Shown here: positions 6,386 to 10,756 of the stretch, in pieces | Numbering within the stretch: position 1 is the first letter of the stretch | Layout: each line of letters opens with the position of its first letter | Assembly (NCBI GenBank): GCA_024742495.1 | Contig: JANSYJ010000009.1 | Location: 1-64,000, forward strand | Length of the DNA: 64,000 nucleotides | Direction: 5' to 3' | From: Bacteroidota bacterium | Lineage (GTDB): Bacteria > Bacteroidota > Bacteroidia > Flavobacteriales > Schleiferiaceae | Notes under the pieces: model-generated | Seen by the model: the letters and a program-made list of their open reading frames with translations, nothing else | Told to the model about the DNA's origin: nothing | Databases searched by the model: none | Made by a program: the position numbers and the translations under genes

Positions 6386-8521
6386 TTAGCCAATAATCTG
6401 GCTGATAAGGGTAACGCTGAAAATGGACATCATGAGCCAACCCAGAAGACCTTCGAGGATAAGAACGTAACGGGAGATTCCTTCGGTTGGAATATAGCCA
6501 AAACCCAGGGTGGTAAAGGCATTAACACTTAAGGCAAGGGCGTTTAAAAACTTGGCCGAAACGAACCACAGTAAATATAAGCTGAACCAGGTGCTGAGGG
6601 CAAAAGCCACCCAATATTGCCGGCCGGCCGGTAAGCTCAACCAGGTACCCGAAAGCATCTCGGTGCGCTCCAAAAAGGCCCGTCTTAGATTGGGTTTAAG
6701 ATTAAGGTATTTGAAATAAAGCTCGGTAAGCTTGAGGAAGAAGGGCGGTACCTTATTGGCACTGCGGTGATAAGCCTGCTCCAATTCTTTTTGGTCTTTA
6801 CTCTCCTTGTTGTACTTGCCAAATTCCTTTTCATAGTGAACACTCAAATCCTCTTTACTTCGGAAGTAGTTAAGAATGAGTCGCAAGCGACTGGCCAATT
6901 TTCCCTGCGTATTAATATCCCATTGGTTGTGAAAGAGCATGTAGAACAGGGCGAAAATGAAGATGATGCGCAGGGAATAGAGAATCGCCAGGATGGGATT
7001 GGTGCCATAAGCCGTAAACACCCGCATAAAGTTATTGACCTTCCAGTTGAAGTAGGTCTCTAATCTTGGGTTCGCCTTATAATCTAAACGATAACGACGC
7101 AAACGCAGGTCGCCTAAAAGGACTTCCAATTCATTGGCATCAGCTAGGTTTCCCTGAGTACGATACAAGTTACGGAGTTCGCTGTATACCTGTAAGAGTC
7201 GCTTATAGGCGTTTTCATCCAAAAGAGAAGACTTCCGATTTCCGCGATAGGCTAAGCTGTCAATCGGAGTACTTAACATCTTTTCCATAGAGCTACCTCC
7301 TACTATTACCCCTTTTAATTTCTCCCAATTAATAAATGATTGTATCCCATATGATATGGAATGAAAAAGAACAGGTTCCTCAAAAGTATTGTCCGCGATT
7401 GCCAAACGCGATCGGACATTTAATGCAGACAACTTAAGAGGAGCCTTAAATTCATTATCATCGATAATTAAGTAATCCGTATTCACAAACTGCACTCCTA
7501 CACCAAATTTCCGATTTAGATTCTCGAAGGTGTTATTATTGATGAAAAAGTCTCCTTTTAGATTAACTTCTTTGATTTGAAGTTGATCAGACACCAAGGA
7601 GCTTGAGGGCTTGAAATGGTTGGCACCGATCTCAATTTTAATGGTACTTATCTTGTTAACTGTGCATTGATTTTCGAAATGATTCAACTTTATCGCAAGC
7701 ATATCCGTTGGCCTTAAGCCACTGAAGTGAGCGTTTCCTTTGAAATTAGACTTAAGCACTTCAAAATTTCTGCTGATATTATTGGCAGGGTTAAAGTCCT
7801 CCAAAAAAGTTGAACTCCCTATTTTAATCGTCCCCTTGCTAAATCCGTAATCCAAGGCTTTGCTGAGATTACTTCTTGGAATAATTGAATTATTTTGAAT
7901 ATAAAATACCCATCCAAAGGAGCAGCTATCTATGAGCAAGGAAATGGCACTATTGTTATTGATAGAGGACCATTCGGCCTTGCCGAAATTGCCGTTCACA
8001 ACCCTTATTTGCGCCTCTACCCTATTATTATCTATACTTAACCATCCAGCCTTTACTCCACTCATGTGGATGGCATTAACTTGGCAGCGAGCTATAAGCA
8101 CCGACTCAGCTTCGACATTTACAATTTCTGGAATAGCTCCGCTACTCCCTTCAATCGCCAAGCCCTTTTGAAAATTGAATCCGCTGATATAGGTCTCAGG
8201 CATTTTCCAATGATTCAAATTCAACTCCGGACCAATAAATTGAATGTTTGATAAGCTAACCTTGATCGAAACAGGAATGAGAGTTGTATCCAAATTGGGT
8301 TTCAAAGCAAATTGATCGGTGGCCGGATTAAAGCGGACCGTCGCATTCTTAAGTACATATTCACCCTCCTTCGTATTTGCTATTTCTTGAAAAAGTTGCT
8401 TAAAACTCAAGTCCCTTTGGGCGGCCAAGGGCATGGAAAGGAGAAATGCGAGGCAAAGCAGCAAGTGGGGTTTTAGGGATTTAGGAGCAAATAGATTTTG
8501 GGGCTGGTACATAGAGCCCAA
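6386..8521 (-). CDS. Beta-helix domain fused to a K+-channel-like pore
   Basis: 711 residues. A signal-like segment (HLLLCLAFLLSMPLAAQ) leads into about 400 residues of repeating short strands with Asn ladders (SIDNNRV, SINNNSA, YIQNNS), which suggest a right-handed beta-helix. A membrane helix follows (IIFIFALFYMLFHNQW, about 510-530), then a charged cytosolic stretch. The C-terminus is a two-helix pore module: YWVAFALSTWFSLYLLWF, a pore loop with filter TTLGFG (about 670-675), and a last helix. T-x-G-F-G is the potassium selectivity filter pattern of the Ion_trans_2 family. The beta-helix would lie outside the membrane. Inferred role: ion channel gated by an extracytoplasmic sensor. A PAGRQ insertion just before the pore module is discussed in the findings. 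Confidence 0.8.
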   Translation of the reverse strand: MGSMYQPQNLFAPKSLKPHLLLCLAFLLSMPLAAQRDLSFKQLFQEIANTKEGEYVLKNATVRFNPATDQFALKPNLDTTLIPVSIKVSLSNIQFIGPELNLNHWKMPETYISGFNFQKGLAIEGSSGAIPEIVNVEAESVLIARCQVNAIHMSGVKAGWLSIDNNRVEAQIRVVNGNFGKAEWSSINNNSAISLLIDSCSFGWVFYIQNNSIIPRSNLSKALDYGFSKGTIKIGSSTFLEDFNPANNISRNFEVLKSNFKGNAHFSGLRPTDMLAIKLNHFENQCTVNKISTIKIEIGANHFKPSSSLVSDQLQIKEVNLKGDFFINNNTFENLNRKFGVGVQFVNTDYLIIDDNEFKAPLKLSALNVRSRLAIADNTFEEPVLFHSISYGIQSFINWEKLKGVIVGGSSMEKMLSTPIDSLAYRGNRKSSLLDENAYKRLLQVYSELRNLYRTQGNLADANELEVLLGDLRLRRYRLDYKANPRLETYFNWKVNNFMRVFTAYGTNPILAILYSLRIIFIFALFYMLFHNQWDINTQGKLASRLRLILNYFRSKEDLSVHYEKEFGKYNKESKDQKELEQAYHRSANKVPPFFLKLTELYFKYLNLKPNLRRAFLERTEMLSGTWLSLPAGRQYWVAFALSTWFSLYLLWFVSAKFLNALALSVNAFTTLGFGYIPTEGISRYVLILEGLLGWLMMSIFSVTLISQIIG

Positions 8522-9031: not shown

Positions 9032-10756
9032 TCACCAATCCACCGGCGCCTCCAAGGTCATGGCCTCGCCGCTAATTGGATGCTTAAAACTGATGCGCTC
9101 CGCATGCAAGTACAATCGATCTGCCAGGCGCCCGTATAAATCGTCGCCAAGGATAGCCAATGCCAAGCCCTCGCCGTGGGCAGCATGCACTCTTAATTGA
9201 TGAGTGCGACCAGTAATCGGATAAAAGTAAACTTTGGTTTTACCCTCCTTTCTTTCCAATACTTCCCATTTAGTCACCGCGGCTTTACCATATTCGTAGC
9301 ATACCAATTGGCGAGGACGATCATTCAAATCTACCCTTAAGGGTAAGTTTATTAAGCCTTGATCCTCCTCCAGGATTCCATCTAATATGGCCACATAGCG
9401 CTTAGAAATGCTGCGCACCTTAAACTGATATTGCAAAGCTTTATGGGCCTTGCGTGTTTTCGCCAGGAGCATTATACCCGAGGTTGACATGTCTAAGCGA
9501 TGGACGATTAATGGTCCAGTGGCCTTTGGATACTTAGCTTGCATTCGCTTAAAAACCGAATCCTCCACCCGCTTTCCTGGTACCGATAAAAACTCATTGG
9601 GCTTGTTGATGGCCAGCATATCATCATCCTCATAGACCACCTCAATATCGAGGGGCGCTTCATGTTGTTCTAACATTGGATTAGGTGCCACCTTTAGGCC
9701 TTGGAGCATATGCCCTAATATGGGCTCACATTTTCCGCGACAGGCCGGATAATACTCCTTATGCTTGCGCACCTCCATTTTTGGAGGCACACCCCACCAA
9801 AATTCGGCCATGCAAATGGGCTCAAGCTTATGCTGATAGGCGTAGTGCAAAAGTTTCGGTGCGGCACAATCGCCAGCACCAGCGGGAGGGTTTTCGTTTA
9901 TGCTATGCTGAAAGATGGCGAATAAAGAACGTTTCTCATAATGGGCATTCAAAAACTGGAATTGCTTAAAAATCTGTTTTTGCAGGGCATTAGACTTGTT
10001 TTTACGCCCTTCTCTTAAGGCCTGTATTTCATCATCATAAAGCTTAAAGTCCCGCTGAACCTCAGCCAGCTCCTCGGCCAGAGCCAATTTCAACTTTTTT
10101 AAACCATAATTCCGATGGGTGCTTTCCTTAGACAATGCCAGCTCTAAATCCTGGAATTCCGAGGCCGAAAGCTGATTCACAGCGGCTTCTTTTTTTTGTC
10201 GCCTTTCCTTCCGCGCTTCGCGAATCGATGCTTTTTCGGCCGCCAAACGTTCCGCCGCCTGTTCCTCCTGTTGCTCCAGTTTCGCTTTCAAGCGCTTATA
10301 TTCTTCAGAAGCTTCTAAAAACTCCAAACGCTCATTCATCTGCGAAAGCTCCTTTTCGCCCTTTCTATAAAACTCGCCCTCCACCAAGGTGTCGAAAACC
10401 GGAGGCACAAAAGGAGGCAGTATGCTATTCCCAGCTAAGCGTCCCGAAAAAGCGGTGAGATAAGCCAGGCGACCTTGACTATCCTTTACCACCAAAACGC
10501 CAAACATTTTCCCTTGCGGAGATTCTTTGTTTTGGGGATCCAAGCCAAAGTTATGCTGCCAATCGTTTTGAATAAGTAAATAGTCCTGAAGCTCCTTAGC
10601 CGCCAATTCCGCCAAGCGATGCGGACGGTAATAGAAGGGGAAGTCAAAGGCCTTTGGCGCTTCAATTTCCGAAATATCGTGACGAAAAGGGATGAGGTGT
10701 TCTTTCAAGGGGGTAAAGATAGGATGGCGCGATTTGACAATTCTTAAAAAGCTCAA
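9032..10756 (-). CDS. RluA-family RNA pseudouridine synthase, long form
   Basis: 574 residues. The C-terminal half (about 370-574) is the pseudouridine synthase domain: HRLDMSTSG with the catalytic Asp, then GRTHQLRVH. The N-terminal half is an extension with a long charged coiled coil (about 130-270, EEQAAERLAAEKASIREARK) and a Cys-bearing block (GAGDCAAPKLL; YYPACRGKCEP) that precedes the catalytic domain. Such long forms of about 550 residues exist in Bacteroidota and gammaproteobacteria. The target base, in rRNA or tRNA, cannot be read from the sequence. It is transcribed alone. Confidence 0.93.
   Translation of the reverse strand: MSFLRIVKSRHPIFTPLKEHLIPFRHDISEIEAPKAFDFPFYYRPHRLAELAAKELQDYLLIQNDWQHNFGLDPQNKESPQGKMFGVLVVKDSQGRLAYLTAFSGRLAGNSILPPFVPPVFDTLVEGEFYRKGEKELSQMNERLEFLEASEEYKRLKAKLEQQEEQAAERLAAEKASIREARKERRQKKEAAVNQLSASEFQDLELALSKESTHRNYGLKKLKLALAEELAEVQRDFKLYDDEIQALREGRKNKSNALQKQIFKQFQFLNAHYEKRSLFAIFQHSINENPPAGAGDCAAPKLLHYAYQHKLEPICMAEFWWGVPPKMEVRKHKEYYPACRGKCEPILGHMLQGLKVAPNPMLEQHEAPLDIEVVYEDDDMLAINKPNEFLSVPGKRVEDSVFKRMQAKYPKATGPLIVHRLDMSTSGIMLLAKTRKAHKALQYQFKVRSISKRYVAILDGILEEDQGLINLPLRVDLNDRPRQLVCYEYGKAAVTKWEVLERKEGKTKVYFYPITGRTHQLRVHAAHGEGLALAILGDDLYGRLADRLYLHAERISFKHPISGEAMTLEAPVDW

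Follow-up and report, generated by a model that had tools for sequence, protein, structure and literature searches.

Organization of the gene

Does a single protein of a Schleiferiaceae bacterium join a secreted beta-helix to the pore of a K+ channel, and on which face of the membrane would each part lie? The window, i.e., the whole stretch of 64,000 nucleotides that was analysed (contig JANSYJ010000009.1, positions 1 to 64,000), carries an intact open reading frame on the minus strand at 6386–8521. The ATG at 8512 (708 aa, MYQPQNLF...PLAAQ) is the likelier start and was preferred over the TTG at 8521. The parts of the encoded protein are arranged as follows, with the basis of each assignment in brackets.

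6386–8512, minus strand: whole gene, signal peptide, beta-helix and channel module, 708 aa (open reading frame; homologues)
8417–8512, minus strand: signal peptide, residues 1–32, ...FLLSMPLAAQ (hydropathy; same start in nearly all complete relatives)
7349–8362, minus strand: predicted extracytoplasmic beta-helix, residues 51–388, with coils of ~22 residues in the second half (profiles, AlphaFold, motif period)
7013–7234, minus strand: conserved helical linker, residues 427–500, family motif GDxxSANxxYxExKDxET (alignments A1 and A2; model)
6932–6997, minus strand: TM1, residues 506–527, after a YGTxP motif, predicted to run from outside to inside (alignments, hydropathy, model)
6608–6925, minus strand: basic helical insert, residues 530–635, predicted cytosolic (hydropathy and charge, model)
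6545–6607, minus strand: TM2, the M1 helix of the pore, residues 636–656, predicted to run from inside to outside (hydropathy, model, NaK profile alignment)
6497–6544, minus strand: pore helix and selectivity-filter motif, residues 657–672 (Pfam, alignments, profile)
6392–6478, minus strand: M2 inner helix, residues 679–707 (alignment, hydropathy, model)

The N-terminus is a signal-peptide-like stretch, KPHLLLCLAFLLSMPLAAQ, and the chain terminates one residue past M2, a cytosolic C-terminal domain being absent from both the alignment and the model. The mean hydropathy over 81 relatives has four peaks, corresponding to the signal peptide (around residue 22), TM1 (around 518), TM2/M1 (around 647) and M2 (around 694), and the TTLGFG motif occupies residues 667–672, at 6497–6514. 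The membrane helices and filter motif pointed out in the earlier note are hence present, and the exported-type N-terminus that it described is near universal in relatives. The full-length AlphaFold model of the window protein has a mean pLDDT of 76.9. The order of signal peptide, beta-helix, linker, TM helix, basic loop of ~105 aa and M1-P-M2 is no chance pattern.

The pore module

Two alignments of relatives were compared. The 14 members of A1 form an unbiased alignment, not selected by the filter or M2 motif. The 81 rows of A2 come from loci preselected by the filter motif or the M2-start motif, so that conservation inside these motifs is biased in A2. The Ion_trans_2 model (PF07885) is matched by all 14 A1 members, with a best E of 6.5e-9. 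The window protein alone reaches 17.7 bits by hmmscan, below the cut-off of 22.5, as its sole plausible match, and the window locus scores 23.2 bits, above the cut-off, in the genome scan with the family. The filter reads [TSV][TS]LG[FY]G in every A1 member, with the LG[FY]G core in 14/14, and TTLGFG of the window protein fits the K+-channel pattern T-[VLI]-G-[YF]-G. Outside the filter, S662, N664, F666, Y682, G688, G691 and W692 are invariant in both A1 and A2, and R681 is invariant in A2; such residues argue for a working pore.

A pore-only profile (A4, last 95 residues) retrieved 42 PDB sequences, all of them cation channels, with NaK first (E 0.0079); M1, the pore helix, the filter and most of M2 are aligned nearly without gaps. 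Together with the Ion_trans_2 matches, this alignment supports the claim of a K+-type P-loop. The C-terminal module of the window protein alone, searched against the PDB, gave chance matches to dethiobiotin synthetase only. Structure prediction, the check proposed for the pore loop, lends weaker support. In the full-length model, 54–59 residues fit Kir6 and CNGC pores at 2.7–3.0 Å, with a non-significant Foldseek probability of about 0.5, which is weakly in favor. The isolated-pore AlphaFold monomer is uninformative or, if anything, slightly against it, forming one continuous helix across M1 and the pore helix with the re-entrant loop not resolved, and Foldseek found no significant match for this model. 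Taken together, the window family may be expected, with good though not full confidence, to function as a channel, and its selectivity is likely for K+.

A degenerate pore, in which the channel module would merely anchor or oligomerise a periplasmic beta-helix scaffold without conducting ions, appears unlikely. The filter is TLGFG and not TVGYG, and no cytosolic C-terminus is present, both of which would suit such a scaffold. However, conservation within the protein is highest in the LG[FY]G core, in the pore-helix Ser, Asn and Phe that flank it and in the M2 glycines, and GFG filters are functional in known K+ channels, namely hERG and the second pores of K2P channels.

Predicted membrane topology

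Signal peptides were found in 77 of the 87 complete members with naive starts, compared with 136 of 371 neighbouring open reading frames, and most of the remaining 10 are start-choice or contig-edge cases. In the hydropathy of the 81 relatives, three TM helices come after the signal peptide, so that TM1 would run inwards and M1 outwards, the P-loop would lie outside, and M2 would return inwards. The signal peptide and the one extra TM helix thus provide the parity for a normally oriented K+ pore with a periplasmic beta-helix, and the topology predicted from sequence agrees with the extracytoplasmic placement that had been put forward for this domain. Per ~15 residues, K+R number 3.2 and 4.1 on those flanks of TM1 and M1 that are predicted to lie inside, and 2.1, 0 and 1.9 on the outer flanks. 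The insert at residues 530–635 has a mean charge content of 18.7 K+R versus 12.9 D+E, and such a basic segment between TM1 and M1 fits the positive-inside rule; since the residues ahead of TM1 are mildly basic too, the charge argument is a moderate one.

A GluR0-like inverted layout, with a periplasmic beta-helix and a pore loop entering from the cytosol, seems quite improbable. Its precedent is GluR0, which pairs an extracytoplasmic ligand-binding domain with a K+ pore whose inversion was established by PhoA fusions (PMC13099474; PMC2950845). However, in GluR0 the signal peptide is followed by one TM helix and then at once by the pore, whereas the filter here has two TM helices before it and the third behind it, which, given the signal peptide, would make it face the periplasm; the basic loop between TM1 and M1 also speaks against inversion.

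The probable beta-helix domain

In the window protein, an [NDS]xF motif is spaced by 21–23 residues at positions 234, 255, 277, 298 and 321, with further copies at 353 and 375, a period with P of about 0.002 against shuffles. The full-length AlphaFold model places mostly short strands in residues 51–388, with very low confidence at 155–186 and 266–314. Among the A1 relatives, Pentapeptide_3 is matched by 3/14 and Pentapeptide_4 by 2/14; the window protein itself has no match to the pentapeptide Pfam models. Searched against the PDB, the family profile matches HalA, an McbG-like protein, MfpA and the SV2C luminal domain. Full-length Foldseek gave no match that reached E ≤ 0.001; its weak matches are to channel pores and to beta-helix proteins, among them polygalacturonase, pectate lyases and AlgG, which are right-handed beta-helices. 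On the strength of the motif period, the modelled strands, the pentapeptide matches of relatives, the family-profile matches and the weak Foldseek list, residues 51–388 likely fold as a beta-helix, with the least confidence for the stretches 155–186 and 266–314. The earlier note had allotted about 400 residues to this domain; the fold is upheld, and the extent was slightly generous, since ~340 residues are followed by a helical linker of ~75.

The resemblance to HalA brings in a phage-defence channel, in which a cytosolic pentapeptide domain would bind a nucleic-acid signal and keep a toxic pore shut, a reading to which we attach little probability. The family profile does match HalA (9nyi, E 3.9e-6), and the HalA model gives weak scores for some members. 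However, the 9nyi match is generic and confined to the repeat region, and the HalA model gives sub-cut-off matches in 159 of 297 phylum genomes and never one above the cut-off. In addition, PADLOC gives no match, no nucleotidyltransferase was spotted when the conserved clusters of neighbouring genes in relatives were inspected by eye, and the near-universal signal peptide speaks against a cytosolic repeat domain.

Membership of HalA itself was considered and rejected. NF051894 reaches at best 24.7 bits in a relative, against a cut-off of 250, through a match generic to pentapeptide repeats, and does not match the window protein. A Pfam scan of the window neighbours gave no HalB nucleotidyltransferase.

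Family and distribution

The search for the same fusion in other genomes that had been proposed was run, and the fusion is conserved across Bacteroidota and in Ignavibacteria/Chlorobi. Judged from sequence, this is a real, conserved and unnamed family of bacterial membrane proteins, mainly of Bacteroidota. With the last 294 residues as the query, matches occur in 2/88 genomes of its own family and 15/395 of its own class, and the family profile finds 8/297 genomes of the phylum at E ≤ 1e-10, the own genome being counted each time. The scan of the genome collection with the family alignment confirmed 160 places, of which the best 80 were retained as 78 loci; among these best 80, the titles are Bacteroidota, save one of Ignavibacteria (L105) and one of Chlorobi (L107). 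Relatives in which the parts follow in the same order, across about 520–650 residues, come from 10 or more genera of the class, from other Bacteroidota and from Ignavibacteria/Chlorobi; in a few loci (L013, L016 and L024) the insert before the pore helix is shorter. The single window protein had no match in the close-relative scan of genome contigs, nor in the PDB and NCBIfam searches.

The spread is patchy, and six other genomes of the genus are without the channel gene. Among three same-genus genomes compared, the flank beside the RluA-type pseudouridine synthase gene differs, which points to an accessory channel gene, and the comparison showed no clean empty site for it.

Two side observations concern relatives and the neighbouring gene. 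The closest relative (L002/L005, G028:C47:6709–7487), from the same family, is split across two frames near a contig end, by a frameshift or an assembly error. The RluA-type synthase at 9032–10756 of the window has an N-terminal extension of ~370 residues, and the extended protein is conserved in the three same-genus genomes at 62–70% identity.

Operons and DUF6090

Channel-family reading frames stand in tandem, two to four together, in 14 of 77 loci, often with a gap of 1 bp, and some of them are broken or clipped by the contig end. Six loci (L038, L045, L048, L054, L061 and L070) contain three or four paralogous channel genes in tandem, several with 1-bp gaps. Such paralogue arrays suggest heteromers.

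DUF6090 (PF19578) genes lie near the channel in 20 loci, one of which is a duplicate record, and all 68 of them share the channel strand. In seven independent loci, DUF6090 is within a few bases of a channel gene. The same-strand operons formed by tandem paralogues and DUF6090 genes often have gaps of 1–6 bp. Channel operons with co-directional DUF6090 within a few bases were seen in L035, L048, L061, L063, L076 and L077. Of the eight genomes checked, five have 8–12 DUF6090 matches genome-wide, which makes chance proximity unlikely there; the other three have 32–86, so proximity in those genomes is less meaningful. DUF6090 proteins contain one TM helix near residue 20–45, from which the C-terminal part would be periplasmic. 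Beside the window's own gene there is no DUF6090 neighbour, and the two matches in its genome include at least one on another contig. The gene arrangement makes DUF6090 a possible partner of the channel in relatives with operons. No publication on DUF6090 was found in the literature searched, which leaves out most subscription papers.

Proposed mechanism

The protein would be an inner-membrane cation channel, probably tetrameric and K+-selective. The signal peptide would export the chain and place the beta-helix in the periplasm, TM1 would cross inwards, and the basic domain of ~105 residues would lie in the cytosol. Subsequently, TM2 (M1), the TTLGFG P-loop and M2 would make up a pore of normal orientation. 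The beta-helix in the periplasm, tied to TM1 by the conserved helical linker, would most likely sense or bind an envelope component and gate the pore. Where relatives have operons, the likely partners would be the DUF6090 proteins, with one TM helix and a large part predicted periplasmic. The basis of this proposal is the order of parts, the conservation, the pore homology, the signal peptide and the operons of relatives, and we infer the topology, the tetramer, the K+ selectivity, the gating, the ligand and the DUF6090 partnership. As a whole, a periplasmic beta-helix sensor gating an upright cation pore is the reading that we hold to be probable.

A cation channel of the same architecture and other selectivity, e.g., NaK-like for Na+/K+, is very improbable: the nearest PDB pores by profile are indeed NaK and its variants, but the filter of NaK is TVGDG, unlike the GFG/GYG found here, and NaK mutants that select K+ have G(Y/F)G, as the window family does.

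More tentatively, and with slightly less confidence than an even chance would carry, the beta-helix channels may constitute a class, so far without a name, of Bacteroidota K+ channels gated by a ligand or by the envelope. In such a class the secreted beta-helix would read a periplasmic cue and open the upright pore, tandem paralogues may form heteromers, and DUF6090 proteins may serve as periplasmic partners. Such a class could have originated when a pentapeptide domain was exported and one TM helix was added, placing the sensor outside and keeping the pore upright. If so, this would provide the first candidate function for DUF6090.

Comparison with known systems

For HalA of the Hailong system, an ion-channel role is described, with poly-dA from HalB as the blocker (PMC13275509). 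Like the window family, HalA (PDB 9nyi) has a beta-helix of the pentapeptide type and an ion channel in a single chain, and the profile match lies in the repeat region. However, HalA is a chain of 371 residues with a cytosolic ligand domain, its channel part has no match, and the HalB partner of Hailong was not seen with the window family. HalA reportedly (Tan et al. in 2025) binds DNA made in the cytosol, hence the cytosolic location of its ligand domain.

The pores of NaK/NaK2K and KirBac share the profile alignment with the window family through M1, the pore helix, the filter and most of M2, but these channels are without the extracytoplasmic beta-helix and without the preceding TM helix and cytosolic insert. 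The SV2C luminal domain (weak profile match, E 0.029) is a beta-helix of the pentapeptide type on the membrane side that faces away from the cytosol, although SV2C is a eukaryotic transporter-like protein and no channel. Prokaryotic K+ channels gated through RCK or cyclic-nucleotide domains share the Ion_trans_2 pore; their regulatory domain is cytosolic and C-terminal, whereas the window protein stops right after M2. The own genome encodes such an RCK K+ channel (L130, G000:C21) as well as a voltage-gated-type channel (Ion_trans; L129, G000:C2).

The statement that known prokaryotic K+ channels carry RCK or cyclic-nucleotide domains in the cytosol does not hold in general, GluR0 being an extracytoplasmic counterexample. 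A GluR0-type channel is encoded in the same genome (L128, G000:C22:537554–537808 region), with a signal peptide, SBP_bac_3, Lig_chan, Ion_trans_2 and a TVGYG pore; no SBP_bac_3 or Lig_chan halves of this type were matched by Pfam in the window protein or the 14 members of A1. The novelty claimed for the arrangement is accordingly narrowed: extracytoplasmic sensing is known from GluR0 and a pentapeptide domain with a channel from HalA, and the part that would stand is the secreted beta-helix with a predicted upright pore. In the literature searched, with subscription papers mostly outside it, no paper was found on a secreted beta-helix joined via an extra TM helix to a non-inverted pore.

GluR0 and the window protein both combine in one chain a signal peptide, an extracytoplasmic sensing domain (predicted here) and a K+-type pore. 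In GluR0, the sensor is a solute-binding domain split around the inverted pore, whereas the window protein has an N-terminal beta-helix, an extra TM helix, a cytosolic insert and a predicted upright pore. Few bacterial channels sense the outside, GluR0 being the textbook case; if the proposal is true, the protein described here would represent a second architecture, with an upright pore and found across several orders of Bacteroidota, and a tractable model for the extracellular gating of K+ channels.
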